DNA from: Olsenella sp. An188
GTDB taxonomy: Bacteria; Actinomycetota; Coriobacteriia; Coriobacteriales; Atopobiaceae
Assembly (NCBI RefSeq): GCF_002160255.1
Contig: NZ_NFKF01000002.1
Location: 186,001 to 250,000 of the forward strand
Direction of reading: 5' to 3'
DNA length: 64,000 nt
Positions 459 through 63,319 of this stretch are shown here, piece by piece. The notes under the pieces are model-generated. The model searched no databases and had not been told where the DNA came from. It saw nothing but the letters and a program-made list of their open reading frames with translations. Each line of letters starts with the position of its first letter. Position 1 is the stretch's first letter. Both the position numbers and the translations under genes were made by a program.

Positions 459-1084
459 GCGGCGAGAAGGACGGCGCGGCCCGCACGGCCACGCCCACGC
501 TGCGCGAGCTCGTCCGCGAGGACGCCGAGGCCGCCTTCCGGCGCGACCCCTCCGCCGAGTCCGTCTCGGACGTCACGCGCTTCTCCGTGGGGTTTCGCAT
601 CGTGCGGGCCTACCGCCGGCAGCACTGGCTCTACGAGCGCGGGCACCGCACGCTCGCGCTCTGGCTCGCGCGCCGCTCGCGCATCCGCTACGGGGCCGAC
701 ATCCACCCGGCTGCGACGATCGGACGGCGCTTCGTCGTGGACCACGGGATCGGCGTGGTCATCGGCGGGACCGCGATCATCGGGGACGACTGCCTCATGT
801 ACCAGGGGGCCACGCTCGGCATGACCGGAAAGCACGGCGGCAAGCGCCACCCCACCCTCGGCAGCAACGTCATGGTCGGCGCGGGCTCCATCGTGCTCGG
901 CGCCATCACCGTGGGCGACGGGGCGCGCGTGGGCGCGGGGTCGGTCGTGGTGCGCGACGTGCCCGCCAACGTCACCGTGGTGGGAAACCCCGCCCACGTC
1001 GTGCGCACGCGCGCCTGCCCGCTCGTCGGGGACGTGGTCTGCCTCACGGACCGCACCGGTGAGACCTGGATCGAGGAGGGCTAG
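455..1084 (+). CDS. cysE: serine O-acetyltransferase
   Basis: This enzyme acetylates serine with acetyl-CoA to give O-acetylserine, the substrate of the cysteine synthase encoded just upstream. The protein has 209 residues. An N-terminal helical part (residues ~15-75) is followed by a left-handed beta-helix made of hexapeptide repeats (~80-190), with family landmarks DIHPAATIG, the active-site region [29 protein letters not shown] and GAGSVV(V)RDVP. The GTG start lies inside the cysK stop (GTGA overlap), so its translation depends on cysK. The second to sixth residues (SGEKD) are encoded by a copy of the dispersed GGCGAGAAGGAC motif. A shorter N-terminus than E. coli CysE is normal for Gram-positive SATs. 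Confidence 0.95.
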
Positions 1085-1102
1085 GCGCGCCGTGCGGCCG
1101 CG

Positions 1103-1582
1103 CTACAGCACCTGCTCGAGGCAGGTCTTCTGCACGCCCATGCCCATCGCCTCGTAGAAGGCGCGCGCACCGGGGTTGCACTCCCATACGTTGAGCGTCA
1201 CGTTGTGGCAGCCCATCTCGCGCGCGAACGCGATGACGTGTCGGTAGAGCGCGGTAGCCACCCCCTGGTGGCGGCTCTTCTCGTCCACGCAGATGTCGTC
1301 CACGTACAGGCTCACGATCGGCTGCATGTTGTTGGAGCCGCGCAGGTCCTGCACCTCGCAGAACGCGTGGCCGAGCACGCGGCCAGCGCCCGGCGCGTCC
1401 TCCACGGCAACGAAGACCGGCCGCGCGTCGTCGGCAAAGATGGCGAGAAGCTCCTCGTCGGTGTACTTGCGCGTGCCGGGGCGGAACAGGTCCGGCCTCC
1501 CCTGCGCGTGCACCTCGAGCACCTGGGCAAGCAGGCTGCGCACGCCCTCGAGGTCCTTCTCGCCCGCCCTTCTAATCCTCAT
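1103..1582 (-). CDS. GNAT-family N-acetyltransferase
   Basis: A 159-residue GCN5-related acetyltransferase that should transfer an acetyl group from acetyl-CoA to an amine; the substrate is unknown. The start is placed at MRIRRAGEKD because the upstream extension does not resemble this family. The acetyl-CoA binding region is visible as DEKSRHQGVATALYRHVI, followed by a C-terminal NVWECNPGARAFYEAMGM segment typical of motif B. The ATG lies 11 bases inside the end of the ATP-grasp gene, so it is the last member of a coupled three-gene set (esterase-like, ATP-grasp, GNAT). The GEKD near the start is encoded by a copy of the dispersed motif. It ends 18 bases from the convergent cysE. Confidence 0.85.
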   Translation of the reverse strand: MRIRRAGEKDLEGVRSLLAQVLEVHAQGRPDLFRPGTRKYTDEELLAIFADDARPVFVAVEDAPGAGRVLGHAFCEVQDLRGSNNMQPIVSLYVDDICVDEKSRHQGVATALYRHVIAFAREMGCHNVTLNVWECNPGARAFYEAMGMGVQKTCLEQVL

Positions 1583-2798
1583 CGTCCTCACGCTCCCTCT
1601 CCTGCACGAATGCCACGAACCTCTCCGCCCGCTCCGGTGTCTCCACGCGCGCCGTGTACTGGAAGTTGCCCATGTCGTCGGAGAGCGCGTCGGGCACGCG
1701 CCCGCACGAGACGACCGCGTCGCCAAAGCGTGCCATGACCTCCTCGTGGGAGTGCGCGTAGGCGTGGGCGTCGCGCCGGCTCGCGTAGACGCAGAAGGCG
1801 TCCGTGCCGTCCGGCTCCGTGCGACGCTCGTCGAAGCAGACCATGTCCGCCCAGACCTGGTAGACGTTGGTCGAGTGGGCGTAGTTCATCATCTCGGGCG
1901 TGGTGCCCCCCGGCGGTCGCACGTTGACCTCGAGGCCCACGTAGGAGCCGGCCGCCCCGAGGCCGGGGTGGTCGCGGGCGAGCCGGAAGAACTCGAGGTG
2001 GACGAAGCGGCTGACGAGGCCGAACGAGCGCACCGTGGCGCGCCCGAGGCGGGAGAGCTCCGGGTCGACCTCGGGGCACGAGCGGTACGCGAGGTCGAGG
2101 CCGCCGTACACCACGTCGGACATCGACGGCGGGAACTCCTCCTGGTTCTCAAAGAGCACCTCGCCACGGCTGTCGAGGATGGCGTCCCAGGAGCAGATGT
2201 CCCCCTCGACGTACTGCTCCACGACGTAGGGGACGGGGTCGGATCCGTCAGGGCCGTGCTCGGCGAGAAGCGCGCGGAGGTCGGCGTCGTTGCGCAGCAG
2301 GCGCGTCCCGGCGGCGCCCACGCCCACCTCCGGCTTGGCGAAGACCGGGTAGTGGCCCATCTCGCCGATGAACCAGCGGGTCTCGTCGAAGGTGGTGAGG
2401 CAGGTCTGGCGCGGGGCGGGGACGCCCGCGGCGGCGTAGAGCGGCTTCTGCGCCCTCTTGCTCTGCCAGCGGGCGACGTCCGCCGGGCGCGGGCCGCGGG
2501 AGACGTTGAAGTCCTCGCGCAGGCGCGCGTCCTGGGCGAGCCAGTGCTCGTTGTTCGACTCGATCCAGTCCGGTTTGCCCCAGCGGTACGAGAAGTACGC
2601 GACCGCCCGGTAGACCTGGTCGTAGTCGGCGAGGTCGGAGACCAGGTAGTACTCGTCGAGGGAGGCCCTGACCTCCTCGGCCAGGGCCTCCCAGGGCGTG
2701 TCCCCGATGCCGAGCGCGTGGGCGCCGTTGCGGCGCAGGGCCGCGCAGAACTGCCAGTAGACGCTCGGGAACTGCGGCGATACAAAGACGACGTTCAT
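1572..2798 (-). CDS. ATP-grasp domain protein (putative carboxylate-amine ligase)
   Basis: A 408-residue protein of the ATP-grasp superfamily, which joins a carboxylate to an amine or thiol through an acyl-phosphate. The N-terminal ~115 residues form a pre-ATP-grasp domain (MNVVFVSPQFP, later WIESNNEHWLAQDARLR). The ATP-binding region runs from ~115 (KSKRAQKPLYAAAGVPAPR) through the Gly-rich AKPEVGVGAAGTRLL to PYVVEQYVEGD, with the metal-ligand EVNVRPPGGTTPEMMN near residue 305. This resembles the carbamoyl-phosphate-synthase-like ATP-grasps. Its start codon directly follows the stop of the esterase-like gene (TAG-ATG), so the two are strictly coupled. Substrate is unknown; the neighbours suggest an amide or peptide bond-forming modification, which is inference. 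Confidence 0.85.
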   Translation of the reverse strand: MNVVFVSPQFPSVYWQFCAALRRNGAHALGIGDTPWEALAEEVRASLDEYYLVSDLADYDQVYRAVAYFSYRWGKPDWIESNNEHWLAQDARLREDFNVSRGPRPADVARWQSKRAQKPLYAAAGVPAPRQTCLTTFDETRWFIGEMGHYPVFAKPEVGVGAAGTRLLRNDADLRALLAEHGPDGSDPVPYVVEQYVEGDICSWDAILDSRGEVLFENQEEFPPSMSDVVYGGLDLAYRSCPEVDPELSRLGRATVRSFGLVSRFVHLEFFRLARDHPGLGAAGSYVGLEVNVRPPGGTTPEMMNYAHSTNVYQVWADMVCFDERRTEPDGTDAFCVYASRRDAHAYAHSHEEVMARFGDAVVSCGRVPDALSDDMGNFQYTARVETPERAERFVAFVQEREREDDED

Positions 2799-9091: not shown

Positions 9092-10852
9092 CTATTCGCT
9101 CGGTGCGGGGTCGAGCAGCTCGGTTACCGTGGTCGTGGCGGCGCCCTCGTCCTTCTCGGCGCACCTGAACGAGATCGGGTCGCCGGGAGCGTAGGTCACG
9201 ATCTCGACCATGCCGGGCAGGGCGAAGTCGTAGATCTCGCCCGACGCGTCGCCCTCGAGCGTCACGTAGAAGTGCGAGTTGCCGTCGATGACGGCCTGCG
9301 CGACCGTGGAGACGGTCCCGGAGACCTCGCGCGACCCGGCGGCAGCGGCCGCGTCGTCCTCCGAGAGCAGGCCGTCCGACGCGAGCATGGCGAGGTAGCC
9401 CTCCTGGCACTCCTCGACCGTGGAGCCCGTCGCCACGCTCTGGTACTGCTCCACGTTGATCATCGCGTACATCTTGACGAGGCCGGCGTCGTCCTTGAGC
9501 GCCATGAAGTAGGTGGGCTGCCCCGCCACGTTGAGCAGCAGCGGGTAGGTTGCCTGGTAGCCGAGGTGCTGCACCTGGCCCTCCGCCGAGGCCATCGCCG
9601 AGTCCTCCGTGGCGCCGCCGCGCTCGAGCGCGTAGTAGCGCGAGTCGCCGGTGCGCTGGTTCACGAGGATGAAGCCCACGTTGGAGTTGTCCGCCGTCAC
9701 CGAGCTCACGCCCGTGTAGAGGTAGATGTCCTCGCCCTGAGCGATGTAGTTGTAGCCGAGCTCCCCGTTGGTGCCGCTCGTGGTGCGCACCACGCCCTCC
9801 TGGCCGAGCCACGAGTTGAGCCAGCCGTTGCCGTAGGCGCCGCTCCAGTTGTACTGCTCGATGAGCAGGTCGGCCGGGTAGGCGCGGTCGACCCACGTGG
9901 GGCAGTCCTCCACGGCGTAGTCTGCCGTCTCCCCCGTGCAGGCGTCGACGAGCACCACGCGCTGGATCGTCGTGCCGCCAAACAGGCCGATCGTCTTTCT
10001 CTGGACCGGGTAGACCCACCAGGGGTTGCCCTCGTCGTCCAGCTCGAACGACTTCTGGTCGAACATGTAGGTCGGGTACGAGAGCTGCACGTGGCGGTCG
10101 ACGTTGCGCGCGAGCGGCTCGGAGTCGGAGTAGAGGATCGGCCGCTCCAGGCGCACAACCTCGGCCTCCTGCGTGACCATGTCCACGAGCACGTAGGCCG
10201 GGATGCCGGCGTCGCGGTTGGAGAGCCACTTGAAGAGGTCGGCGTAGGCCAGCGGGCTCACGCGCACCGGACGCCCCTGGTAGTTGATCTGGCTGTAGGT
10301 GTCCGCGATCTCGAACTGGCTCACGTACTCGGGGATGGAGCCCATGGCGCGGTTGCCGAGCAGGATGGCGGAGTCGCGGTCGATCACGGGCACGTCGGCG
10401 TAGTCGACCTCCTGGATGTCGGAGGCGAAGTCGCCGTCCGAGGTCTGGAGCACGCTCGCGTAGCGCTCGGCGTTGCCCGGCACGAAGGGCTGGCTCAGCA
10501 GCAGGCCCACCAGAAACGCCACGATCACGGAGCCGGGGATGACCATGAGCTTCTTGAAGAGCGGAGCGCGGGCGATGCTGCGCGCGGCGGCCACGGCGAG
10601 CGCCAGGATGGCCACGAGCGCGATCGCGCAGACCCACGTCCATACGCGTGGGCTCCCCAGGTTGATCGCCGGGTGGAACCACCAGTACAGCACCACGAGC
10701 GCAACGGCGAGAAGCACCGCGCACACGACGAGCGCCCGACGGCTCCACGCGGCGATTCGGTCGACGAGCGAGGTGGCGGAGCCGCCGCCGGACCGGGCGT
10801 CCCGGCGCATCCGCTCGAAGAGGTCCTTGAGGTCGGGGCCTTGCTGGGGCAT
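9092..10852 (-). CDS. large membrane-anchored protein with extracytoplasmic domain, function unknown
   Basis: A 586-residue protein without a family I can name. A short cytoplasmic N-terminus (MPQQGPDLKDLFERMRR) is followed by three hydrophobic segments at about residues 38-60, 69-90 and 102-122. The remainder (~125-586) is hydrophilic, acidic and rich in Tyr, Trp and Gly (for example NPWWVYPVQRKTIGLFGG), as expected for a domain outside the membrane. The start is set by AAGGAGAG seven bases upstream of the ATG. It stands alone, converging with ansA and divergent from the uptake operon. A -10-like TATCAT lies near 10895 on its strand. Confidence 0.7.
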   Translation of the reverse strand: MPQQGPDLKDLFERMRRDARSGGGSATSLVDRIAAWSRRALVVCAVLLAVALVVLYWWFHPAINLGSPRVWTWVCAIALVAILALAVAAARSIARAPLFKKLMVIPGSVIVAFLVGLLLSQPFVPGNAERYASVLQTSDGDFASDIQEVDYADVPVIDRDSAILLGNRAMGSIPEYVSQFEIADTYSQINYQGRPVRVSPLAYADLFKWLSNRDAGIPAYVLVDMVTQEAEVVRLERPILYSDSEPLARNVDRHVQLSYPTYMFDQKSFELDDEGNPWWVYPVQRKTIGLFGGTTIQRVVLVDACTGETADYAVEDCPTWVDRAYPADLLIEQYNWSGAYGNGWLNSWLGQEGVVRTTSGTNGELGYNYIAQGEDIYLYTGVSSVTADNSNVGFILVNQRTGDSRYYALERGGATEDSAMASAEGQVQHLGYQATYPLLLNVAGQPTYFMALKDDAGLVKMYAMINVEQYQSVATGSTVEECQEGYLAMLASDGLLSEDDAAAAAGSREVSGTVSTVAQAVIDGNSHFYVTLEGDASGEIYDFALPGMVEIVTYAPGDPISFRCAEKDEGAATTTVTELLDPAPSE

Positions 10853-10972: not shown

Positions 10973-11004
10973 GGCGAGAAGAACGCGCAGCCGCGGCGTA
11001 TCAT
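10973..11004 (+). promoter_or_regulatory. putative promoter of uptake operon, motif copy 14 nt before -10
   Basis: A copy of the dispersed motif GGCGAGAAGAAC (10973-10984) is followed after 14 nt by TATCAT (10999-11004), a plausible -10 box. The predicted leader to the ATG at 11039 is then only about 30 nt, which leaves no room for a cobalamin or other riboswitch. No good TTGACA-like -35 is seen at the usual spacing; the position is occupied by the motif. The same arrangement occurs before the penicillin-binding protein gene. Confidence 0.4.
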
Positions 11005-11038: not shown

Positions 11039-12229
11039 ATGAACACCGCCATCCCGCGCCGCGCCCTCCTGGCCGGCGCACTTCTCGCCGCAGGGGGGCT
11101 CGCCGGGTGCACGTCCCCGTCCGACGGGGCGAGCCAGGCCGAAGGCGGCCCCGAAGCCGAGGGCGCCTCCTTCCGCAACCTCGACCTCGGGTGCGACCTG
11201 GGCGTCGCCGAGGAGGTGAGGCTCTCTTACGCCACGCACCTCACGTTGGACGCGCTCGACGACGGGCTCCTGCTCGTCTGCATGGCGAGCGGCGACCGGC
11301 TGCTCCTCGCCCCCGCGGGGTGGGAGGCGCCCGAGGGGCTCTCCGACGACGTCGCCCTCGTCCGCCTGCCGCTCGACAACGTCTACCTGGTCTCGACCGG
11401 CATGATCTGCCTCGTTGAGGCCGTCGGGGCGCTCGACGCCGTCTCGGTCTCGTCCGTGCGCCCCGCCGACAGCCCCTCCCCGGACTTCGCCGAGCGGCTC
11501 GAGGACGGGCGAGTCGCGTACGGCGGGCTCTACCGAGCCCCCGACTACGAGCTCATCGCGGCACGCGGCTGCCCCCTCGCGATAGAGAACACCAACATCG
11601 ACCACGTCCCCGAGGTGCGCTCCAAGCTCGAGGAGCTCGGCGTGACCGTCCTCATGGAGCAGTCAAGCCGCGAGGAGCACGTGCTCGGCCGCCTTGAGTG
11701 GATCAGGCTCGTGGGGGCGCTCTTCGGGAGGGACGACGAGGCGCGCGCCGTCTTCGACGAGGTGGCCGCACGCGTCGAGGCGGCCTCTCGCGAGGAGCCC
11801 ACGGGAAAGAGCGTCGCGTTCTTCTACCTCAACGAGGACGGCGCCGCGGTCACGCGGCGCGCGGGCGACTACCTCTCGCAGATGATCGAGCTCGCCGGGG
11901 GGAGCTACGTGAGCTTCTCCGAGGACGGGGCGACCGACTCGTCCCCCACCACGGTCACCGTGGAGATGGAGAGCTTCTACGCCTCGGCGCGCGACGCGGA
12001 CGTGATCATCTACAACGCCACCGTGGACGACGGCGTCTCCTCGGTCGAGGAGCTCGTGTCGAGAAACGCCCTGCTCGGCGACTTCCGCGCCGTCCGGGAG
12101 GGCAACGTCTGGACCTGCGACTCGACCATGTACCAGCAGATGACCGCCATGGCAGACATCATCGAGGACATCCACCGCGCGCTCACGGACTCCGCCGAGC
12201 CCACCACCTACGTGTGGAGGCTGAGCTAG
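11039..12229 (+). CDS. ABC transporter substrate-binding lipoprotein (iron/heme/corrinoid type)
   Basis: A 396-residue solute-binding protein of the BtuF/FecB class that would capture an iron complex, heme or corrinoid outside the membrane. The N-terminus carries twin Arg (PRRALLAGALLAAGG) and a lipobox LAGC, so it is likely a lipoprotein, possibly Tat-exported. Class features include YELIAARGCPLAIENTN and the C-terminal helical part ending TMYQQMTAMADIIEDI. The operon continues with permease, ATPase and SDR genes with one-base gaps or overlaps. The exact ligand cannot be read from the sequence. Confidence 0.85.
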   Translation: MNTAIPRRALLAGALLAAGGLAGCTSPSDGASQAEGGPEAEGASFRNLDLGCDLGVAEEVRLSYATHLTLDALDDGLLLVCMASGDRLLLAPAGWEAPEGLSDDVALVRLPLDNVYLVSTGMICLVEAVGALDAVSVSSVRPADSPSPDFAERLEDGRVAYGGLYRAPDYELIAARGCPLAIENTNIDHVPEVRSKLEELGVTVLMEQSSREEHVLGRLEWIRLVGALFGRDDEARAVFDEVAARVEAASREEPTGKSVAFFYLNEDGAAVTRRAGDYLSQMIELAGGSYVSFSEDGATDSSPTTVTVEMESFYASARDADVIIYNATVDDGVSSVEELVSRNALLGDFRAVREGNVWTCDSTMYQQMTAMADIIEDIHRALTDSAEPTTYVWRLS

Positions 12230-12230
12230 C

Positions 12231-13283
12231 GTGGGCGCCGTCGGCGGGGGCGGCGGAACGCCCGGCGGGAGGTCGCGCGCATCACGGGCGCTCGCCTTCG
12301 ACCTGGCCGTCCTTCTCGGCCTCCTGGCGCTGTTCGTGGCGAGCCTGTGCGTGGGCAGCGTCGGGACCTCCCCGGCCGAGACGCTCTCCATCCTCGCCGC
12401 CGGCCCCGGAGACGCCGCGACGGCAAGCCAGGTCGTCTGGCAGATCCGCCTGCCGCGGGCCCTTGAGGCGCTGCTGCTCGGCGGGGCCCTCTCGCTCTCC
12501 GGCCTCCTGCTGCAGACCTTCTTCGCCAACCCCATCGCCGACCCCTTCGTGCTCGGCGTCTCCTCGGGGGCCAAGCTCGTGGTCGCCGTCGTGATGGTCG
12601 CGGTGCTCGGAGCGGGGCAGGTCATGAGCCCGTGGGCCTCCGTGGGCTCGGCGCTCGTCGGCTCGCTCGCGACGATGGGGCTCGTGCTCGCCCTCTCGCG
12701 GCGCGTGCGCAGCCAGGGGACGCTCATCGTGGCGGGCGTGATGGTGGGCTACGTCTGCTCGGCGGCCACCAACTTCCTCGTCGCCTTCGCCGACGACCAG
12801 AGCATCGTGAACCTGGACAACTGGTCGCGCGGGAGCTTCTCGGGCGCGACGTGGCCCGACGTCGCGATCGTCGCGGCCGTGGTCGCGGCCGGCTCGCTGG
12901 CGGTCCTCGCGCTCTCCAAGCCCCTCGGCGCCTACCAGCTCGGCGAGCCCTACGCCCAGAGCGTGGGCGTCGACGTGCGGCGCCTGCGCATGCTCATCGT
13001 GCTCGTCTCAAGCGTGCTGTCCGCCTGCGTGGCCGCCTTCGCCGGGCCCGTCTCGTTCGTCGGCATCGCCGCGCCCCACCTCGCCCGCCGCGGGGTCGGC
13101 TCCTCGCGCCCGCTGCTCGTCACGCCGGCGTGCTTCCTCACCGGAGCCGTCTTCTGCTGTGGGTGCGACCTCGTGGCACGCACGCTCTTCTCGCCGGTCG
13201 AGCTCTCCGTGAGCGCGGTCACCGCCGTCTTTGGCGCCCCCGTCGTGATTGCCCTCATGCTCGGGAGGAGGTCGCCGAGATGA
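12231..13283 (+). CDS. FecCD-family ABC transporter permease
   Basis: A 350-residue integral membrane protein with about nine or ten hydrophobic helices, matching the FecCD/BtuC permeases that import iron complexes, heme or vitamin B12. Recognisable parts are QIRLPRALEALLLGGALSLSG, QTFFANPIADPFVLGVSSGAK, DNWSRGSFSGATW and the cytoplasmic coupling region GPVSFVGIAAPHLARR. The GTG start follows the binding-protein stop after one base, and its TGA overlaps the ATG of the ATPase gene, so stoichiometric coupling is expected. No separate promoter is visible. Confidence 0.93.
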   Translation: MGAVGGGGGTPGGRSRASRALAFDLAVLLGLLALFVASLCVGSVGTSPAETLSILAAGPGDAATASQVVWQIRLPRALEALLLGGALSLSGLLLQTFFANPIADPFVLGVSSGAKLVVAVVMVAVLGAGQVMSPWASVGSALVGSLATMGLVLALSRRVRSQGTLIVAGVMVGYVCSAATNFLVAFADDQSIVNLDNWSRGSFSGATWPDVAIVAAVVAAGSLAVLALSKPLGAYQLGEPYAQSVGVDVRRLRMLIVLVSSVLSACVAAFAGPVSFVGIAAPHLARRGVGSSRPLLVTPACFLTGAVFCCGCDLVARTLFSPVELSVSAVTAVFGAPVVIALMLGRRSPR

Positions 13284-14470
13284 GCGCTCCGGGCGAGAAG
13301 GACGCGCGGCCGGGCACCGCGCTCGAGCTGCGCGGGCTGTCGGTCGGCCACGGGCGCGCCGCGCTCGTGCGCGACGTCTGCCTCTCCGTGCGCCCCGGGC
13401 AGGTCGTGGCGCTCGTCGGACCCAACGGGTCCGGCAAGACCACGATCCTGCGCACGGTAGCGGGCCAGCTGCGCGCGCTCGGCGGGTCCGTCGAGCTCTT
13501 CGGGCGCGACCTCGCCGGCATGCCGGGGGACGACCGGGCGCGCACCATGGCCGTCATGCTCACGGGCCGGCCGTCGACCGAGCTCACCACCTGCCGGGAC
13601 GTGGTGGAGGCGGGACGCTACCCCTACACCGGGCGGCTCGGCGTGCTCGGCGCGGCCGACGACGAGGCCGTGCTCGCGGCCATGGAGGCCACCGGGGTGA
13701 GCGCGCTCGCCGAGCGCGACTTCGCGCACGTGAGCGACGGGCAGCGCCAGCGCGTCCTTCTCGCCCGCGCGCTGTGCCAGGAGCCCCGGGTGCTGCTGCT
13801 CGACGAGCCCACCTCCTACCTCGACGTCCGCTCGCAGCTCGACGTGCTCGACCTGCTGAGGCGTCGGGCCCGCGAGCGCGGGATAGCCGTGGTGGCCTCG
13901 CTGCACGAGATCGGCCTCGCCCAGCGCGCGGCCGACCGCGTGGTCTGCGTCAGGGACGGGCGCGTGCTGTTCCAGGGCACGCCGGACGAGGTCTTCACCG
14001 CGCCGCGCATGCGAGAGCTCTACGACCTCGGCGAGGGGAGCTTCAACCCGCTCTTCGGCAGCGTCGAGCTCGCGCGGCGCGCGGCCGCGCCCGAGATCTT
14101 CGTCGTGGCGGGAGGCGGGTTCGGGGCGGCGTGCATGCGCGCGCTCGCCCGCGAGTACGTCCCCTTCGCCGCCGGCGTCCTCCACGAGCACGACTCGGAC
14201 GGGATGCTCGCGGCGAGCCTCGCGACCGAGGCGGTGCTCGAGCGGGACTTCGAGCCCGTCGGCGAGCGCGCCCTCTCCCGGGCGCGCGAGGTCCTTCTCG
14301 GCTGCCGGGCGCTCGTCTGCTGCGTGGGGGACTTCCGTCCCGGCAACGCCCGCAACGCGGAGCTCGTCGAGGCGGCGCGCGCGGCGGGCATCCCCGTCTT
14401 CCGCGATGCGGGCGCGCTGCTCGCCGCGCGCGGGACGGGTACGGACACCTACGGACAGGAGAGGCCATGA
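13280..14470 (+). CDS. ABC transporter ATP-binding protein with C-terminal extra domain
   Basis: A 396-residue protein that powers the preceding FecCD permease. The first ~260 residues are a normal ATPase: Walker A GPNGSGKTT, signature region HVSDGQRQRVLLARAL (the usual LSGGQ is VSDGQ), Walker B VLLLDEPTS and the H-loop His in SLHEIG. Residues ~270-396 form an extra alpha/beta domain that begins IFVVAGGGFGAACMRALA and contains DSDGMLAASLATEAVLE and GDFRPGNARNAELVEAA. I have seen such extensions on related iron/cobalamin ATPases, with no known role. Start ATGA overlap with the permease; the second to eighth residues include GEKD from the dispersed motif. Confidence 0.9.
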   Translation: MSAPGEKDARPGTALELRGLSVGHGRAALVRDVCLSVRPGQVVALVGPNGSGKTTILRTVAGQLRALGGSVELFGRDLAGMPGDDRARTMAVMLTGRPSTELTTCRDVVEAGRYPYTGRLGVLGAADDEAVLAAMEATGVSALAERDFAHVSDGQRQRVLLARALCQEPRVLLLDEPTSYLDVRSQLDVLDLLRRRARERGIAVVASLHEIGLAQRAADRVVCVRDGRVLFQGTPDEVFTAPRMRELYDLGEGSFNPLFGSVELARRAAAPEIFVVAGGGFGAACMRALAREYVPFAAGVLHEHDSDGMLAASLATEAVLERDFEPVGERALSRAREVLLGCRALVCCVGDFRPGNARNAELVEAARAAGIPVFRDAGALLAARGTGTDTYGQERP

Positions 14471-42205: not shown

Positions 42206-42250
42206 AGCACACGCAACGGCGCAGGGCGAGAAGAACGCGCGGCCCGAGCC

Positions 42251-47560: not shown

Positions 47561-48567
47561 GCGGACCGCCCCCTCCCGGGAGCGCTCGCGTCGCCGGCCG
47601 CGCGCGAGGGCTCGCGCGCGTCGATGATGCGCACGAGCTCGGCCTCGAGGTCGGGGACGCTCACCGAGAGCTCGCTCACGGCAACTCCCGCGGACAGGAG
47701 CGCCTGGGACAGCACGCGGCGGTCCGGCTCGCCGCCGCCCGGCGCCGTCACGCGCAGCGCGCCGTCGGGAAGCACCCGCACCGTGAGACCGGGAAGCTCC
47801 TCGGCGAGCGCCGCCACCGCGCGCTCCGGCGCGTCCACCCGCAGCGTGAGGTAGGTGGCGCAGGCGTCGGCGAGCTCGCCCTCCGTGAGCTCGCGCACGA
47901 GGAAGCCTCCGCGCATGATGCCGTAGTGCGTGCAGACGCGCTCCAGATGCGAGAGCACGTGCGAGCTTATGACCACGGTGACGCCGCGCTCGCGGTTGAG
48001 CCGGGCGAGAAGGTCGCGCAGGGCCGCCGCGCCCGTGGGGTCGATGCCGTTCAGCGGCTCGTCGAGCAGCAGGATCTCCGGGTCGCCGAGAAGGGCGAGG
48101 GCCACGCCGAGTCGCTGGCGCTGGCCGGTGGAGAGGTCGTCGACGTAGGTGCCGCGCGGCCAGAGGACGCGCCGGCGGCCGTCGCCGGCGTCACGGGCAC
48201 CGAGCCCCACGAGCTCGAGCACCTCTCGGCACGCCGCCCTGGGGTCGGGCAGGCCAAGGATAAGCGCACGGTTCATGAGGTTCTCGAAGGCGTCGAGGCG
48301 CCCGTAGACGGCCGGGGCCTCCACGAGCACGCCGAGGCGCGGGTCGGACTCGCCGGGGCGCAGCTGGCGCCCGCCCACGCAGACGGTCCCGCGGTCCTGC
48401 GGCGTGAGCCCGGACACGAGCTTGAGCAGGGTGGACTTGCCCGCGCCGTTCTTGCCCACGAGGCCGTAGACGGAGCCTGCAGGCACGTGCATGTCCGCGT
48501 CCAACACGGCCCGCACGCCGCGGAACGACTTGGAAAGACCACTCGTCTCTATGGCGTTGCTGCTCAT
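47557..48567 (-). CDS. ABC transporter ATP-binding protein (immunity/bacitracin type)
   Basis: A 336-residue ATPase for the two downstream permeases. It has Walker A GLVGKNGAGKSTLL, Q-loop region, signature LSTGQRQRLGVALAL, Walker B EILLLDEPLNGIDPTG and H-loop VVISSHVLSHLE. The match to BcrA/LanF ATPases (GLVGKNGAGKST, NGIDP) fits a peptide-antibiotic exporter. The C-terminal ~70 residues extend past the ATPase core. Directly upstream is a direct repeat ACAAG-N6-ACAAG that could bind the response regulator encoded next. Confidence 0.92.
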   Translation of the reverse strand: MSSNAIETSGLSKSFRGVRAVLDADMHVPAGSVYGLVGKNGAGKSTLLKLVSGLTPQDRGTVCVGGRQLRPGESDPRLGVLVEAPAVYGRLDAFENLMNRALILGLPDPRAACREVLELVGLGARDAGDGRRRVLWPRGTYVDDLSTGQRQRLGVALALLGDPEILLLDEPLNGIDPTGAAALRDLLARLNRERGVTVVISSHVLSHLERVCTHYGIMRGGFLVRELTEGELADACATYLTLRVDAPERAVAALAEELPGLTVRVLPDGALRVTAPGGGEPDRRVLSQALLSAGVAVSELSVSVPDLEAELVRIIDAREPSRAAGDASAPGRGRSA

Positions 48568-48650: not shown

Positions 48651-48690
48651 AACGAGCCCGCGCCTGGGTCCTTCTCGCCCGTGCCCGCCC

Positions 48691-49410
48691 CTACGCCTGC
48701 GCGCGGAGCTTGAAGCCGATGCCCCAGACGGTCTGGACGTAGTCGTCCGTGCCGGACTCACGCAGCTTGGCACGCAGGTTGCTCACGTGCGTGGAGATGG
48801 TCCGCTCGTCGGCGAGCGCCTCCTCGTGGCGCACGAGCTCGAAGAGGGCCTGCTTGGTGAAGACGCGGCTCGGCTCGCGCATCAGCGCGGCGAGGATGTC
48901 GAACTCGGTGCGCGTGAGGCGCACGGGCGCGCCGTCCACGGTAAAGGTGCGCGCCGCAGGGTCGAGCTCCCAGCGGCCAAAGCGCAGGGCGGCCGGGGCT
49001 GCGGGCGTCTCGCGGCCGCGCAGCTGGACCTCCACGCGGGCGAGAAGCTCCTCGAGGTCGAAGGGCTTGACCAGGTAGTCGCTCGCCCCCAGGCGGAGCA
49101 CGCCCACGCGGTCGGCAAGCGCTCCCTTTGCCGAGGTCACGATCACCGGCGCGTCAACGCCCGCCGCGCGCAGGCGCCCGATGAGCTCCTCGCCCGGGAC
49201 GCCCGGCAGCATGAGGTCGAGGATCACGAGGTCGAACGGCTGGCCCTTCTCGGCCGCGCGCTCCGAGAGCAGCAGCGCCTCCGTGCCGGAGAAGGCTGGC
49301 GCGCACGCGTACCCCTCGTCCCCGAGGAAGGTGCGGACCACCTCGGAGAGCGCGGCGTCGTCCTCGACCACGAGGACGCGCGGGGCGATGCTGTGGGCGT
49401 GAGGTTCCAT
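48691..49410 (-). CDS. OmpR-family response regulator
   Basis: A 239-residue two-component regulator. The receiver domain has VLVVEDDAALSEVV, the phosphorylation site in DLVILDLMLPG and the Lys in ASDYLVKPF. The DNA-binding winged helix ends with ERTISTHVSNLRAKL and VWGIGFKL. It heads the operon regulator, ATPase, two permeases, kinase, all on the minus strand. The start at MEPHAHSIAP is the most upstream ATG compatible with the receiver fold. The gap to the ATPase gene (123 bases) is large enough for a regulated internal promoter. Confidence 0.94.
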   Translation of the reverse strand: MEPHAHSIAPRVLVVEDDAALSEVVRTFLGDEGYACAPAFSGTEALLLSERAAEKGQPFDLVILDLMLPGVPGEELIGRLRAAGVDAPVIVTSAKGALADRVGVLRLGASDYLVKPFDLEELLARVEVQLRGRETPAAPAALRFGRWELDPAARTFTVDGAPVRLTRTEFDILAALMREPSRVFTKQALFELVRHEEALADERTISTHVSNLRAKLRESGTDDYVQTVWGIGFKLRAQA

Positions 49411-51073: not shown

Positions 51074-51146
51074 GTCGGGCGCTCCGTTCCCTCGCCGGCG
51101 GCGACGCTGCGCGAGGTTCTTCTCGCCGGCGAGATGTGGTGGAATT

Positions 51147-51203: not shown

Positions 51204-51281
51204 GCAAATTCGGCGAGAAGGACGCCCGCTCCGCGGTCGTGCTTAACAATCTGGGGTTATGGCACGCCGGACCCCAAACGT

Positions 51282-51422
51282 GCTTAGGAATCCGGGGTTG
51301 TGGCAGGGCCGTCCGCACAAAACCCTCTCACCGGCCCGCACTTCTCGACAAAAGCCCAGTTGGCGAGAAGAACCTCCCGCCGCGCCCCCGCGCCTCTCTG
51401 CCACAACCCCCGATTCCTAAGC
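51282..51422. repeat. 141-bp inverted-repeat element, copy C, with extra half copy
   Basis: The 25-base ends (51282-51306, starting GCTTAGGAATCCGGGG; 51398-51422, ending GATTCCTAAGC) pair at 24 positions. Inside, CTTCTCG (51341-51347) pairs with CGAGAAG (51364-51370) around ACAAAAGCCCAGTTGG. A degenerate direct copy of the left end (20 of 25) lies at 51241-51265. The element occupies the divergent region between the DeoR-type and aldolase genes. Confidence 0.8.
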
Positions 51423-54089: not shown

Positions 54090-54280
54090 GGGGTGCCTCC
54101 CTCGCTTCTCGCCCGCGCCCCGGGCGCCGGCGCACAGTCGTCTGCACGTATGAATGATACGTTGCCGCGCGCGGCGCGTGAACGTCCTTTGCACGGAACG
54201 CCCCATCCGCGTCGCAGGCGGTCGGACGGGTACACTGAGGGGCAGGGAACGGCCCCTTCCGTCGCAACAGAGGAGAACCC

Positions 54281-55831
54281 ATGGCAGAAACGCACCCCAC
54301 CCAGATCAACGCCGCCCTCCCCAACCCTCGCGCAGACATGGAGGCGCTCGACGAGCTCGAGCGCACGCTCTTCTCGCTGGGCTACGCGCTCGGCGAGATC
54401 GGCTCGCTTGGCCCCGTGATCGATCCGCCCAAGGCCACCGCGCAGCGCGGCGAGGCGATGGCGAGCCTCCAGGAGATGGCCGTGCACGCCCTGTGCGACC
54501 CCTCGGTGGGCCCGCTGCTCGACCGCCTCGAGGAGCAGCCCGAGCTGCTGGGGGAGCGCCGCATGGCGCAGGTGCGCGTGCTCAAGCGCGACCGCGCCTC
54601 GCTCGTCGACGTGCCGGCCGAGGAGCAGGCCGCCTTCAGCCGCCTCACGGTGGAGGCCAACGACGTCTGGCGCCGCGCCAAGGCGGCAAACGACTGGGCC
54701 TCCTTCGAGCCCTACCTAGACCGCATCGTCGACTCCCTGCGCCGCATGGCCGCCTTCAAGGACCCCGCGCGCGACCCCTACGACGTCTGGCTCGACGAGT
54801 ACGAGCGCGGTTGCGACCGCGCCTTCTACGACGCGTTCTTCTCGGAGGTCAAGGACACGGTGGTGCCGCTTCTGGCCGACTGCATGGCGAGCCGCCACAA
54901 GCCGAGCCACGCCTGCGTGGACGGGGTCTTTGACGAGGAGCGCCAATGGCGCCTGGCAGAGGACCTCGCGCGCCTCGAGGGCCTCGACATGGACGCGCTC
55001 TGGATCGGGCGCACCGAGCACCCCTTCACGAGCGGCCTCTCCCGCGACTTCGTGATCGTGACCGGGCACGCCTACCCCGACAACGTGCTCTCCAACGTGT
55101 TCTCCGTCCTGCACGAGGGCGGCCACGCCCTCTACGAGCAGGGCGTCTCGGCTGACTACGCGGGAACCTCGCTCGTGGGCGGCACCTCGATGGGCATGCA
55201 CGAGGCGCAGAGCCGCTTCTTCGAGAACCTCGTGGGCCGCTCCGAGGCCTTTGCCGAGCCGCTGCTCGCCGTGCTGCGCCGCCACTTCCCCGGGCAGTTC
55301 GGGCGCGTGACGGCCCACCAGCTCTACCTCGCCGAGAACTGCGCCGAGCCCGGACTCGTGCGCACCGAGGCCGACGAGCTCACCTACCCGCTGCACATCA
55401 TGGTGCGCTACGAGATCGAGCAGCTGCTCTTCTCGGGCGAGGCCACCGCGGCCGACGTCCCCGCCCTCTGGGCCGAGAAGTACGGGAGCTACCTGGGCGT
55501 CACGGTCCCCGACGACGCCCGCGGCGCGCTCCAGGACACCCACTGGTCCGACGGGTCGTTCGGCTACTTCCCCACCTACGCGCTCGGCTCCGCCTTTGGC
55601 GCGCAGCTCAAGGCCGCGATGGTGGCCCAGGGCGTGGACTTCGAGGGCGCCTGCGCGAGCGGCGACCTCGCCCCCGCGCGCGCCTGGCTCGGCGAGAAGA
55701 TCTGGCGCTGGGGACGCGCCAAGGACTCCGGCGAGCTCATCGAGGCGGCGTGCGGCGAGGGCTTCTCGGCACGCTACTTCACGGACTATCTCACCGAGAA
55801 GTTCTCGGCCCTCTACCGGCTGGGGGCCTAG
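54281..55831 (+). CDS. M32-family metallocarboxypeptidase
   Basis: A 516-residue zinc carboxypeptidase of the thermostable carboxypeptidase 1 (Taq) family, which trims C-terminal residues from peptides in the cytoplasm. The HEXXH zinc motif is VLHEGGHALYEQG (~280), followed by GTSMGMHEAQSRFFENLVGRS with the third ligand Glu, and later YEIEQLLFSGE and THWSDGSFGYFPTYALG, all typical of M32. A -10-like TACACT is about 50 bases upstream. The dtd gene starts at the base after its stop, so they form an operon. Confidence 0.96.
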   Translation: MAETHPTQINAALPNPRADMEALDELERTLFSLGYALGEIGSLGPVIDPPKATAQRGEAMASLQEMAVHALCDPSVGPLLDRLEEQPELLGERRMAQVRVLKRDRASLVDVPAEEQAAFSRLTVEANDVWRRAKAANDWASFEPYLDRIVDSLRRMAAFKDPARDPYDVWLDEYERGCDRAFYDAFFSEVKDTVVPLLADCMASRHKPSHACVDGVFDEERQWRLAEDLARLEGLDMDALWIGRTEHPFTSGLSRDFVIVTGHAYPDNVLSNVFSVLHEGGHALYEQGVSADYAGTSLVGGTSMGMHEAQSRFFENLVGRSEAFAEPLLAVLRRHFPGQFGRVTAHQLYLAENCAEPGLVRTEADELTYPLHIMVRYEIEQLLFSGEATAADVPALWAEKYGSYLGVTVPDDARGALQDTHWSDGSFGYFPTYALGSAFGAQLKAAMVAQGVDFEGACASGDLAPARAWLGEKIWRWGRAKDSGELIEAACGEGFSARYFTDYLTEKFSALYRLGA

Positions 55832-56302: not shown

Positions 56303-56310
56303 CGCTCGGC

Positions 56311-56437
56311 GAGAAGAACGCGCGGCTTGCGGACGTTTTTCTCGACAAAAGTGACCGGAACCCGCACGCTTCCGTCGAAGGTGCGGGTTCCGGTCGTTTT
56401 GAGGCGGCAAAGCGTCCGCAAGCCGCGCGTCCTTCTC
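56311..56437. repeat. 127-bp nested inverted-repeat element, copy D
   Basis: Outer arms ACGCGCGGCTTGCGGACG (56318-56335) and its exact complement (56413-56430) are extended by GAGAAG (56311-56316) and CTTCTC (56432-56437), so the dispersed motif forms the base of the structure. A second perfect 15-bp dyad, GACCGGAACCCGCAC (56353-56367) with 56381-56395, lies inside. The loop segment TTCTCGACAAAAG is also found in element C. It fills the gap between the convergent dtd and manA genes. Confidence 0.85.
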
Positions 56438-56473: not shown

Positions 56474-57439
56474 CTACGGCAGGCGCGAGGTCACGAGCGT
56501 CATGTCGCCGCGGAAGGTCAGGTCGCCGCAGCCGGAGGGCGCCAGGAAGTGCGTGCCCCTGCCGACCTTGTGCTCCACGCCGGCCTCGGCCGCGCGCACG
56601 GTGCCCTCGCCGTCGATGACGCTCACGCACAAAAACGGCCAGGGCTGCCCCAGGACCTTCTCGCCGTCCACGCGCACGCGGTCCACGACGAAGTTGGGGC
56701 ACTCCATGAGCTCGGTCACGCCGTCGACCTCGGGCGCGCTGATCTCGCCGGACGCGGGCGCGACCATGTCGTAGTCCACCACGTCGAGGCTCTGCTGGAT
56801 GTGCAGCTCGCGCGGCTTGCCGTCGTCGCCCACGCGGTCGTAGTCGTAGACGCGGTAGGTGACGTCGGAGGACTGCTGGGTCTCGAGGATCAGCGTGCCG
56901 CCCTGGATGGCGTGCACGCAGCCCGGCTCGATCGGGAAGAAGTCCCCGGCGCTGCAGGGCACGAGGTTGAGCATGTCGTCCCAGCGGCCCTCGTCGATCA
57001 TGGCCGCGAGCTCGGCGCGGTCGTGCGCGTGCTGCCCGATCACGATCTTGGTGTCGGGGTCGGCAGCCAGCACGTACCAGCACTCGCGCTTGCCGAGGCT
57101 GCCGTTCTCGTGCTCGGCGGCGTAGACGTCGTCGGGGTGCACCTGCACGGAGAGGTTGTCCTTGGCGTCGATGATCTTGACCAGCAGCGGGAAGCGGTCG
57201 CCCTCCACGTTGCCAAAGAGCTCGCGGTGCTCGTCCCAGAGCTCGGAGAGGTGCTTGCCAGCCCACGCGCCCTCGGCGACCACGCAGTCACCGTTGGGGT
57301 GGGCGCTTATCGCCCAGCACTCGCCGATCGGCCCGTCGGGAATCTCGTAGCCGAAGTCGTCTGCCAGCTTGCGACCTCCCCAGATCTTCTCGTGAAAGAT
57401 GGGCTCCGGAAAGACAAGGTCGCGCTTCGTGTCGGACAT
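56474..57439 (-). CDS. manA: mannose-6-phosphate isomerase, class I
   Basis: A 321-residue zinc isomerase that interconverts mannose 6-phosphate and fructose 6-phosphate. Motifs: HEKIWGGRKLADDFG at the start, zinc ligands in LSVQVHPDDVYA, KRECWYVL and PGCVHAIQGGTLILE, and QQSSDVTYRVYDYDR, the class I signature. The start at 57439 follows GGGGGAG. It is downstream of the lipoprotein gene on the same strand (110-base gap) and converges with dtd across element D. Confidence 0.95.
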   Translation of the reverse strand: MSDTKRDLVFPEPIFHEKIWGGRKLADDFGYEIPDGPIGECWAISAHPNGDCVVAEGAWAGKHLSELWDEHRELFGNVEGDRFPLLVKIIDAKDNLSVQVHPDDVYAAEHENGSLGKRECWYVLAADPDTKIVIGQHAHDRAELAAMIDEGRWDDMLNLVPCSAGDFFPIEPGCVHAIQGGTLILETQQSSDVTYRVYDYDRVGDDGKPRELHIQQSLDVVDYDMVAPASGEISAPEVDGVTELMECPNFVVDRVRVDGEKVLGQPWPFLCVSVIDGEGTVRAAEAGVEHKVGRGTHFLAPSGCGDLTFRGDMTLVTSRLP

Positions 57440-58497: not shown

Positions 58498-58618
58498 GCT
58501 TCTCCTCCTCTTCTCGGGGCAGGAGCAGCGTAGCTTAAAACTTCCTTGAATTTGCTACGGCGGGGTCAATTTCGGCAGATGGCGTCGAGGGGCTCGGCGG
58601 GCGAGAAGAACCGCGCGC

Positions 58619-59023: not shown

Positions 59024-60514
59024 ATGGCTGGCAAGAGGTACGTAATCGCGCTCGACCAGGGGACCACGTCCTCGCGCGCGGCACTCGTCGACCGCTCCGG
59101 GCGCATGGTCGACGTGGTCCAGAGGCCGTTCCAGCAGATCTTCCCCAAGCCCGGGTGGGTCGAGCACAACCCCCAGGAGATCCTCTTCTCGCAGCTGGGG
59201 TGCTGCTCCGAGCTCGTGGCGCGCCACGGACTCGGCGCCGACGACGTGGCGGCCATCGGCATCGACAACCAGCGCGAGACCGTGGTCGTCTGGGACCCCG
59301 CGACGGGCGTGCCCGTGTGCAACGCGATCGTCTGGCAGTGCCGCCGGACCGCGGAGATGGTCGAGCGCGTCTGCGGCGCGCCCGAGGTGCGCGAGCTGGT
59401 GCGCTCCAGGACGGGCCTTCTGCCCGACGCGTACTTCTCGGCAAGCAAGATCGCGTGGGTGCTCGACAACGTGGCGGGCGCGCGCGAGCGCGCCGAGGCG
59501 GGCGAGCTGCTGTTTGGTACCGTGGACACGTGGCTCGTGTGGGTCCTCACCGGCGGGCTCGTGCACGCCACCGACCCCACCAACGCGAGCCGCACGATGC
59601 TCTACGACATCCACCGCGGGTGCTGGGACGATGAGCTGATGGCGCTCTTCGGCATCCCTGCGGCCATGATGCCCGAGGTCCGCCCGAGCTCGGGCTTCTT
59701 CGGCGAGACGAGCTACCCGGGGCTTCCGGCCGGCATCCCCGTCACGGGCGTGGCCGGGGACCAGCAGGCCGCCCTCTTCGGCCAGTGCTGCTTTGAGCCG
59801 GGGCAGGCCAAGAACACCTACGGGACCGGGTGCTTCATGCTCATGAGCACGGGGCTCGAGGCGCGCGCGAGCGAGCACGGGCTCGTGACCACGGTGGCGG
59901 CGACGCCCCCGGGCGAGCCCGCGCACTACGCGCTCGAGGGCTCGGTCTTCGTCGCCGGGGCGCTCATACAGTGGCTCCGCGACGAGCTGGGCGTCATCCG
60001 CACCGCGGCGGAGACCGAGGCGCTCGCGCTGAGCGTGCCGGATGCCGGAGGGGTCACGATCGTGCCCGCCTTCACGGGGCTCGGGGCGCCCTGGTGGGAG
60101 CCGGACGCGCGCGGGGCGATCCTCGGGCTCACGCGCGGGACCACCCGGGCGCACCTCGCCCGGGCCGCGCTCGAGGCGCTCGCCTTCCAGGTCGCCGACC
60201 TCGCCGATGCCATGGCCGCAGACGCCGGGGCGCCGCTCAGCGTCCTCAACGCCGACGGGGGCGCCGCCGCGAACGGGTTTCTCATGCAGTTCCAGGCGGA
60301 CCTCCTCGACTGCGAGCTGCGCCGCCCCGCCAACACCGAGACCACCGCGCTCGGCGCGGCGTTTCTCGCCGGTCTTGCCGCGGGATTCTGGTCCGGCACC
60401 GACGAGCTCGTGGCGCTGCGGTCGGGAGACGACGTGTTCCGCCGCCAGATGGGGCCCGCGCAGGCCGAGGCGCTTCTCGCCGGCTGGCACGACGCCGTGC
60501 GCCGCGTGCTGTAG
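59024..60514 (+). CDS. glpK: glycerol kinase
   Basis: A 496-residue FGGY kinase that phosphorylates glycerol to glycerol 3-phosphate. Motifs: ALDQGTTSSRAALVD, GWVEHNPQEI, IGIDNQRETVVVWD (the NQRET glycerol-binding segment), GDQQAALFGQCCFEPGQAKNTYGTG and LNADGGAAANGFLMQFQADLL. This exact set separates GlpK from other FGGY kinases. GGGGAGGG precedes the ATG, with a -10-like TACTGT about 50 bases upstream. No glycerol facilitator or GlpD is next to it. Confidence 0.96.
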   Translation: MAGKRYVIALDQGTTSSRAALVDRSGRMVDVVQRPFQQIFPKPGWVEHNPQEILFSQLGCCSELVARHGLGADDVAAIGIDNQRETVVVWDPATGVPVCNAIVWQCRRTAEMVERVCGAPEVRELVRSRTGLLPDAYFSASKIAWVLDNVAGARERAEAGELLFGTVDTWLVWVLTGGLVHATDPTNASRTMLYDIHRGCWDDELMALFGIPAAMMPEVRPSSGFFGETSYPGLPAGIPVTGVAGDQQAALFGQCCFEPGQAKNTYGTGCFMLMSTGLEARASEHGLVTTVAATPPGEPAHYALEGSVFVAGALIQWLRDELGVIRTAAETEALALSVPDAGGVTIVPAFTGLGAPWWEPDARGAILGLTRGTTRAHLARAALEALAFQVADLADAMAADAGAPLSVLNADGGAAANGFLMQFQADLLDCELRRPANTETTALGAAFLAGLAAGFWSGTDELVALRSGDDVFRRQMGPAQAEALLAGWHDAVRRVL

Positions 60515-61729: not shown

Positions 61730-61795
61730 GTACGCTCCTCTCTCGGGCGGGCGAAGCGGCCCCGGAGGCGAGGCGCCCCCGGGGCCGCGGAGGTC

Positions 61796-63199
61796 CTAGA
61801 AGTCCGCGTTGCCCACGGTGCGCGGGTGCGGGATGACGTCGCGGATGTTGTCCACGCCCGTGAGGTACATGACCAGGCGCTCGAAGCCCAGGCCAAACCC
61901 GGCGTGGTGGCATCCGCCGTAGCGGCGCAGGTCGAGGTAGTACTTGTACTGCTCGGGGTCCATGCCGAGCTCGCGAATGCGGCCCTCGAGCACGTCGAGG
62001 CGCTCCTCGCGCTGGGAGCCGCCGATGATCTCGCCGATTCCGGGCACGAGGCAGTCGGCGGCGGCGACGGTCCTGCCGTCGTCGTTCATGCGCATGTAGA
62101 ACGCCTTGATCGCGGCAGGGTAGTCCGTGACGAAGACCGGACGGCGGAAGTGCTCCTCAGTGAGGTAGCGCTCGTGCTCGGTCTGCAGGTCGCTCCCCCA
62201 GTCGACGGGGAACTCGAAGACGTGACCCGCCGCCTGGGCGTCCTGCAGGATCTTGATGGCGTCGGTGTAGCTCACGCGCCCAAAGTCCGAGGTGGCCACG
62301 TGAGTGAGGCGCTCCACGAGGCCCTTGTCCACGAACTTGTTGAAGAACTCCATCTCGTCGGGGCAGTGCTCCATCACGTAGTTGATCACGTGCTTGAGCA
62401 TGGCCTCGGCGCAGTCCATGTCGCCCGCGAGGTCGCAGAAGGCCATCTCGGGCTCGACCATCCAGAACTCGGCGGCGTGACGGCGCGTGTTGGAGTTCTC
62501 GGCGCGGAAGGTGGGGCCGAAGGTGTAGACGTCGCCAAAGGCGAGCGCGAAGTTCTCGGCCTGGAGCTGGCCGGAGACGGTGAGGTTGGCTGCGTGGCCG
62601 AAGAAGTCCTGGCTCCAGTCCACGTGGCCGTCGTCGGTGCGCGGCGGGTTCTCCACGTCGAGCGTGGTCACGCGGAACATCTCGCCGGCGCCCTCGGCGT
62701 CGGAGGTGGTGATGATCGGCGTGTTCACGTAGACGAAGCCGCGCTCCTGGAAGAAGCTGTGGATAGCGTAGGCGGCCACGCTGCGCACGCGGAAGACCGC
62801 GCGGAACAGGTTGGTGCGGCTGCGCAGGTGCTGCTGGGTGCGCAGGAACTCGCGAGTCTGGCGCTTCTTCTGCATGGGGTAGTCCGGGGCAGAGGCGCCC
62901 TCCACCACGATCTGCGCCGCCTGGAGCTCGAAGGGCTGCGGGCGCTCGGGCGTGAGCACGAGCTCGCCGGTCACGACGAGCGCAGAGCCCACCCCGGTGG
63001 CGGCTATCTCGTCGTAGTTCTCGAGCTTCTCGCGGTTCATGACCACCTGCAGGTCCTTGAAGCAGGAGCCGTCGTTGAGCATGACGAAGCCGAAGTTCTT
63101 CATGTCGCGGACCGAGCGGACCCAGCCCGCCACGGTCACGGTGGTGCCGCCGAGCGCGTCGGCGTCGGCGAAGAGCTGCGAGATGTGGGTGCGTTCCAC
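61796..63199 (-). CDS. asnS: asparaginyl-tRNA synthetase
   Basis: A 467-residue class IIb tRNA synthetase that charges tRNA(Asn). An OB-fold anticodon domain (1-105; [21 protein letters not shown]) is followed by the catalytic core with motif 2 region [21 protein letters not shown] and motif 3 [15 protein letters not shown]. The [13 protein letters not shown] segment is typical. The GTG start is supported by AAAGGAGAA upstream. No T-box leader is visible. A motif copy lies in the leader (63224-63235). Confidence 0.97.
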
Positions 63200-63319
63200 G
63201 GGGTTCTCCTTTGGTGCGTCGAGGTTCTTCTCGCCTGGTTTGCGCGTCTAACTCTAGCGCAACGGACGGCGCGCCGGAGCGGACACCCCCAGCCGCGGCG
63301 AGAAGCGCCCACACACAGA

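Follow-up and report, generated by a model that had tools for sequence, protein, structure and literature searches.

The 64-kb stretch of Olsenella sp. An188 analyzed in this study (the window; C9:186001-250000 of genome G000, 2.14 Mb in 16 contigs) is scattered with copies of the 9-mer GGCGAGAAG. With 59 copies, 33 on the plus strand and 26 on the minus strand, it was the most frequent 9-mer of the window, the runner-up having 33. An earlier reading made from the letters only (the sequence-only reading) had counted about 57 copies (33 plus and 24 minus); its plus count was correct, its minus count and total were slightly low, and the 29 copies it gave as GGCGAGAAG(A/G)AC were exactly reproduced. 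The over-representation of its 9-mer unit was also found here, but the true element, which it did not define, is longer: 57 of the 59 copies had C at +12, giving the 12-mer GGCGAGAAGNNC as the fuller element. Its claim that many copies are intergenic was borne out, with 28 of the 59 in 7.5 kb (12% of the window) according to our own gene calls, whose gene model was trained with a criterion of GC content at third codon positions (GC3). Scans of the window with Rfam and for tRNAs gave no matches. The copies, counted on the letters of the window, are listed below with their context in our gene calls (CDS, coding sequence).

461..472, plus, GGCGAGAAGGAC, CDS sense frame 0
1442..1453, plus, GGCGAGAAGCTC, CDS antisense frame 0
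1553..1564, minus, GGCGAGAAGGAC, CDS sense frame 0
2262..2273, plus, GGCGAGAAGCGC, CDS antisense frame 0
10706..10717, plus, GGCGAGAAGCAC, CDS antisense frame 0
10973..10984, plus, GGCGAGAAGAAC, intergenic
11078..11089, minus, GGCGAGAAGTGC, CDS antisense frame 0
13184..13195, minus, GGCGAGAAGAGC, CDS antisense frame 2
13292..13303, plus, GGCGAGAAGGAC, CDS sense frame 0
13754..13765, minus, GGCGAGAAGGAC, CDS antisense frame 0
16087..16098, plus, GGCGAGAAGGAC, intergenic
16135..16146, plus, GGCGAGAAGCGC, intergenic
16703..16714, minus, GGCGAGAAGGAC, CDS antisense frame 0
18679..18690, minus, GGCGAGAAGGAC, intergenic, left arm of inverted pair; perfect hairpin, z -6.6
18692..18703, plus, GGCGAGAAGGAC, intergenic, right arm of inverted pair with 18679
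20454..20465, minus, GGCGAGAAGTGC, intergenic
21927..21938, plus, GGCGAGAAGCGC, CDS antisense frame 0
22200..22211, minus, GGCGAGAAGAAC, intergenic
22954..22965, minus, GGCGAGAAGGGC, CDS antisense frame 2
23613..23624, minus, GGCGAGAAGTGA, intergenic, 9-mer with non-C at +12
23683..23694, plus, GGCGAGAAGAAC, intergenic, inverted pair with 23710
23710..23721, minus, GGCGAGAAGAAC, intergenic, inverted pair with 23683
24681..24692, minus, GGCGAGAAGCAC, intergenic
25161..25172, plus, GGCGAGAAGCTC, CDS antisense frame 0
25878..25889, plus, GGCGAGAAGCGC, CDS antisense frame 0
26637..26648, minus, GGCGAGAAGGAC, CDS sense frame 0
29104..29115, plus, GGCGAGAAGGAC, intergenic
31374..31385, plus, GGCGAGAAGAGC, intergenic
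32448..32459, plus, GGCGAGAAGCTC, CDS sense frame 0
35177..35188, plus, GGCGAGAAGAAC, intergenic
35874..35885, plus, GGCGAGAAGAGC, CDS antisense frame 1
36661..36672, minus, GGCGAGAAGAAC, CDS sense frame 0
37711..37722, minus, GGCGAGAAGGAC, CDS sense frame 0
37753..37764, plus, GGCGAGAAGGGC, CDS antisense frame 0
39863..39874, minus, GGCGAGAAGCTC, CDS sense frame 0
42007..42018, minus, GGCGAGAAGAGC, intergenic, inverted pair with 42054
42054..42065, plus, GGCGAGAAGAAC, intergenic, inverted pair with 42007
42225..42236, plus, GGCGAGAAGAAC, intergenic
43517..43528, plus, GGCGAGAAGCAC, CDS antisense frame 0
44862..44873, plus, GGCGAGAAGAAC, intergenic, inverted pair with 44887; hairpin, z -9.1
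44887..44898, minus, GGCGAGAAGAAC, intergenic, inverted pair with 44862
45465..45476, plus, GGCGAGAAGCAC, CDS antisense frame 0
45993..46004, plus, GGCGAGAAGCGC, CDS antisense frame 0
46034..46045, minus, GGCGAGAAGGAC, CDS sense frame 2
46812..46823, minus, GGCGAGAAGGGC, CDS sense frame 2
48004..48015, plus, GGCGAGAAGGTC, CDS antisense frame 0
48668..48679, minus, GGCGAGAAGGAC, intergenic
49039..49050, plus, GGCGAGAAGCTC, CDS antisense frame 0
51116..51127, minus, GGCGAGAAGAAC, intergenic
51212..51223, plus, GGCGAGAAGGAC, intergenic
51362..51373, plus, GGCGAGAAGAAC, intergenic
54102..54113, minus, GGCGAGAAGCGA, intergenic, 9-mer with non-C at +12
55691..55702, plus, GGCGAGAAGATC, CDS sense frame 0
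56308..56319, plus, GGCGAGAAGAAC, intergenic
56654..56665, minus, GGCGAGAAGGTC, CDS sense frame 0
58600..58611, plus, GGCGAGAAGAAC, intergenic
60470..60481, minus, GGCGAGAAGCGC, CDS antisense frame 0
63224..63235, minus, GGCGAGAAGAAC, intergenic
63297..63308, plus, GGCGAGAAGCGC, intergenic

Detailed statistics were obtained from about 764 kb of the 2,136-kb genome, and whole-genome counts by pattern search. The genome contained 1,393 copies of GGCGAGAAGNNC, 733 forward and 660 reverse, and 27 matches to a reversed-pattern control. The near strand symmetry described by the sequence-only reading was thus found both in the window and genome-wide. GGCGAGAAG was among the top 9-mers in a 464-kb sample of this genome, with 316 copies observed vs 40 expected from a third-order Markov model whose training data included the motif itself. 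Hence, the genome-wide comparison that had been suggested gave a count far above expectation, and the motif was also abundant outside the window. Position 12 was C in 97% of the copies in this 464-kb sample, and positions 10 and 11 were variable. C at +12 was found in 162 of 168 intergenic copies as well as in every coding frame class. The intergenic consensus was GGCGAGAAG-D-R-C-S, that is, A/G/T, R (98%), C and S (98%). The spacing of the copies was close to random (coefficient of variation, 1.1).

The ratios of observed to expected copies were 141, 9.0, 2.5, 1.6, and 1.2 at 0, 1, 2, 3, and 4 mismatches, respectively. In intergenic DNA they were 443, 12.5, 1.7, and 1.2 at 0 to 3 mismatches, and in motif-poor genera the gradient began at 9.9. 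Intergenic exact copies numbered 164 vs 131 copies with a single mismatch, for which 30 variants are possible. The single changes tolerated in intergenic copies were G2C (22), G9A (19), and A8G (15), vs about 1.5 expected; the remaining ones were mostly at expectation or modestly above it. In Haemophilus influenzae and Neisseria gonorrhoeae, over-representation of the uptake sequences is likewise reported to drop steeply with mismatch load (PMC1939737).

The density of copies was 3.5/kb between convergent genes, 1.8/kb in tandem gaps and 1.6/kb between divergent genes. In tandem gaps, the third beside the end of the upstream gene was favored (40:27:13 by thirds), and no preference for the direction of transcription was found (38 copies with vs 42 against). 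Neighbors no more than 50 bp apart in the sampled intergenic DNA were inverted in 17 cases vs direct in four. Together with the pairs 18679/18692, 23683/23710, 42007/42054, and 44862/44887 of the window, this agrees with the frequent inverted pairs between genes reported by the sequence-only reading. Closely spaced inverted pairs folded as hairpins, some of them strong, and most copies were solitary. Flank composition returned to background within a few bases, and the flanks were unrelated past about position 16, which argues that no longer unit was copied. Moreover, counts on the sequence revealed no strand polarity along the 560-kb contig C1, nor did 22 samples taken every 100 kb along the single contig of a congener, G111 (84 plus and 71 minus, with no switch). 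Finally, regions with less than 58% GC had 0.17 copies/kb vs about 0.65/kb elsewhere. The largest low-GC island encoded glycosyltransferase, CDP-glycerol transferase and ABC-export genes, a content typical of acquired surface-polysaccharide loci.

Other repeats were seen in the same genome. At 23591-23743 of the window, the 12-mer ATTGGGTGGCATC was inverted at both ends of a unit of about 150 bp enclosing three 9-mer copies; it was also present on C1 and in samples L051 and L086, often paired. The 20-base palindrome GCACAATTCCGGAATTGTGC on C1, outside the window, occurred mostly in pairs whose members lie about 103 bp from each other (e.g., 444455/444559, 483649/483753, 500665/500769, and 109183/109286) and is a small repeated element.

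The genus of Olsenella sp. An188 (g1; as ComEC relatives suggest, the Olsenella/Thermophilibacter group, Atopobiaceae, Coriobacteriia) was represented by 31 species, in 30 of which GGCGAGAAGRAC was found with 227–855 copies each. Intermediate numbers were found in g27, g15, g28, g34, and parts of g24, g25, g20, g5, and g22, as well as in a single genus, g51, from a second family. All further sampled genera of the class and the phylum were close to the control. High-GC actinobacteria of other classes were at background, with at most 24 copies of GGCGAGAAGRAC even in genomes of 8–10 Mb. In genus g15, the motif was retained at 51% GC. A CGAGAAG core was common to the variants of g27, g24, g34, g28, and g15. 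Around it, g27 had a preference for C/G ahead of the core and for G at position 13; in samples of 40–60 kb, g24 preferred CGAGAAGAGC and g34 leaned to GCCGAGAAGC. The comparison of related genomes that had been suggested therefore revealed a motif abundant in the genus, with variants in neighboring genera and background elsewhere in Actinomycetota. Separately, CTGACAGAAG with CTATCTGACAG was another over-represented word in g27 (L067-L069), at 9–11 copies in 60 kb, and the g51 samples L119-L121 were dominated by a repeat containing GTCAGCGGGGATGAT that resembled an array of clustered regularly interspaced short palindromic repeats (CRISPR).

Base-specific conservation was assessed with two g27 species that are about 91–94% identical (263 kb aligned; 97 sites, each occupied by the motif in one species or both). 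Divergence was 2.2% at the ten specified bases, 11.9% at the inner NN (p = 3e-8) and 8.4% in the flanks (p = 2e-14). In the main frame, the two Ns fall on the first and second codon positions, so that coding constraint predicts the reverse pattern.

Could GC content together with Gly-Glu-Lys codons have produced the motif as a side effect? Synonymous codon shuffles within genes accounted for 64 of the 111 copies in sense frame 0 (Gly-Glu-Lys-X). They gave 74 ± 6 coding copies vs 290 observed, 6.2 vs 138 observed in antisense frame 0, 0.1 vs 13 in sense frame 2 and 3.8 vs 26 in antisense frame 2. The sequence-only reading was therefore right that codon bias explains only part: at most 64 sense in-frame copies and almost none elsewhere. 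In the sampled intergenic DNA, 162 copies were observed vs 2.0 expected from a third-order Markov model of that DNA. These counts refute the explanation, which also does not fit the retention of the motif at 51% GC in g15 or the high-GC actinobacteria of other classes, most of which had at most 10 copies of GGCGAGAAGRAC; we give it practically no credence. An RNA-level element or a mobile palindromic repeat, such as a terminator, a processing site, a repetitive extragenic palindrome (REP) or a miniature inverted-repeat transposable element (MITE), would fit the strong hairpins of some inverted pairs and the peak of density between convergent genes. It is contradicted, however, by the strand balance: copies in tandem gaps ignored transcription and 165 of the 290 coding copies were antisense. 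Copies were also mostly solitary and shared no longer unit. Thus, these alternatives of the sequence-only reading each failed a test, and we regard them as very improbable.

A Chi-like recombination hotspot read by a nuclease of the RecBCD/AddAB type would likewise be a short, asymmetric, over-represented word with lineage-specific variants, and homologous recombination would benefit from it. Known Chi sites, however, are strand-polarised and mainly coding, and the motif had no polarity on C1 or G111 and was 3.8 times denser in intergenic (1.73/kb) than in coding DNA (0.46/kb). Its ten specified bases also exceed those of any Chi known to us. As the sequence-only reading had expected Chi and FtsK-orienting polar sequences (KOPS) to be strand-biased, a role of either kind fails, and we consider a Chi-like hotspot quite improbable. 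The nucleoid-protein site that had been named as another alternative is kept here in a wider form, the binding site of a genome-wide chromosomal protein (a nucleoid, segregation or cell-division factor) with each site under selection. The even spread, both orientations and base-specific conservation between species are consistent with it, as is the lack of a receptor gene that tracks the motif. Collections of protein-binding sites are usually degenerate, however, and here exact intergenic copies exceeded those with one mismatch. We know of no such factor with about 1,000 near-exact 10-base sites, and neither the depletion in the low-GC island nor the patchy occurrence of the motif and its variants in neighboring genera is predicted by such a site. 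We judge it unlikely, although it is the one alternative that no test contradicted outright.

The check for comEC, comEA and type IV pili that the sequence-only reading had proposed showed genes for competence and pili in the genome. comEA and comEC were adjacent at C1:190991-193988, dprA was at C1:87298-88170 and a Tad/Flp pilus operon was on C10. In addition, a compact operon at C13:123631-127514 (L086 9631-13514) combined genes for an ATPase of the PilT family and a protein resembling GspF/ComGB with those for four small membrane proteins about as large as pseudopilins, of which one matched DUF4860 and three were unannotated; a minimal ComG-like filament is a possible product of this operon. 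Tad gene order was alike in motif-rich and motif-poor genera. As for other candidates, PilM (PF11104) was scattered over the family and absent from this genome and nearly all of the genus. A second HHH_3 protein of about 780 amino acid residues seemed correlated with the motif, and two motif-rich genomes had no match to it; from its size and domain it is probably Tex.

Given its abundance on either strand, its excess between genes, its inverted pairs, mismatch gradient, variants, conservation and low-GC depletion, together with the competence genes, GGCGAGAAGNNC probably serves as the tag for DNA uptake by natural transformation in the Olsenella/Thermophilibacter group. It would work like the uptake signal sequences (USS) of Pasteurellaceae and the DNA uptake sequences (DUS) of Neisseriaceae. 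With some hesitation, we lean toward uptake sequences having arisen independently for a third time, here for the first time in Gram-positives, in gut and oral Coriobacteriia. Their receptor would sit on a Tad/Flp-type pilus or be of a kind not yet recognised, and genus-level dialects would act as gates to gene exchange. Tagged DNA would be bound at the cell surface by a receptor that is probably one of the minor subunits of a type IV filament, and by analogy with Micrococcus luteus the Tad/Flp pilus would be its first candidate. Bound DNA would pass to ComEA and ComEC, and DprA and RecA would recombine it into the chromosome. We infer that tagged fragments would enter more often, so that tagged alleles would displace untagged ones. 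By this drive the tag would pile up where it is tolerated, i.e., between genes, at the 3' ends of genes, on both strands and in tolerant frames.

Several results weigh against an uptake tag. One species of the same genus, G087, had 40 copies of GGCGAGAAGRAC, about a tenth of the usual number, with lower GC and no visible reason. ComEC, ComEA and the Tad ATPase were near-universal in the family and found equally in motif-poor genera; thus, the machinery does not predict the motif. The PilT/DUF4860 operon was patchily distributed in the family: only about 6 of the genus's 31 species had it, most motif-rich genomes (G089, for example) lacked it, and motif-free g31 had it. Since its distribution is thus at odds with that of the motif, it was rejected as a general motif receptor. 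Among the genes examined in this genome and its relatives, none for a ComP-like receptor was found. Three own-genus pairs (80–88% identical) diverged in the same direction as the g27 pair but more weakly, with 13.6% at specified bases vs 20.5% at NN (p = 0.12) and 19.0% in flanks (p = 0.01). The open-access literature searched contained no uptake or transformation data for the group. The uptake-like reading first proposed from the sequence was thus partly supported: most of its sequence-level traits were borne out, but none of the genes examined follows the motif in its presence.

Searches of the open-access literature brought up neither GGCGAGAAGNNC itself nor any uptake sequence for the group, and subscription papers or preprints may contain one. 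No paper with "DNA uptake sequence" together with Olsenella was found in the open-access literature searched, and the matches listed for the motif word were only primers and unrelated constructs. Sequence-tagged transformation has been described only for Neisseriaceae and Pasteurellaceae, both of them Gram-negative families (PMC12616744). Judged by its sequence traits, GGCGAGAAGNNC is probably a functional analogue of their uptake sequences and apparently the first such case among Gram-positives. Why sequence-tagged transformation evolved is an old question. If true, an independent case in a monoderm actinobacterium would separate its essentials (receptor bias and recombination) from history (outer membrane and ComP). 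Moreover, donor DNA tagged with GGCGAGAAGAAC or GGCGAGAAGGAC could then render these gut commensals, which are hard to manipulate, transformable in the laboratory.

Similar to HIP1 (highly iterated palindrome 1) of cyanobacteria, the motif is a very abundant short genomic word, and the function of HIP1 is debated. HIP1 is an 8-base palindrome, however, whereas the motif is asymmetric, spaced and enriched in intergenic DNA. Chi and KOPS are also short, over-represented and asymmetric; different from the motif, both are strand-polarised. M. luteus, also an actinobacterium, has comEA/comEC and a Tad/Flp pilus and is transformed via Flp/Tad pili with ComEA/ComEC (PMC6370729). The available part of that report mentions no uptake sequence for M. 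luteus, and the role of Tad in uptake here is a candidate only. The DUS of Neisseriaceae, whose receptor is ComP, are comparable to the motif in geometry, with about 10–12 bases, about one copy per kb on both strands and inverted pairs. Sister genera of Neisseriaceae also have variants around a common core, CTG there (PMC3630211) and CGAGAAG here. Different from DUS, the motif has an unrelated sequence, a Gram-positive actinobacterial host and an internal NN, is known from sequence alone, is below the richest Neisseriaceae in copy number, and has no ComP-type receptor found. The USS of Pasteurellaceae, for which PpdA/ComN is the proposed receptor (PMC12616744), differ in sequence, host and machinery, and flanking AT tracts were not seen around the motif. 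The motif nonetheless shares with USS its copy number (1,393 here and about 1,300 in H. influenzae; PMC5217627), its mismatch gradient and its paired copies that form hairpins.

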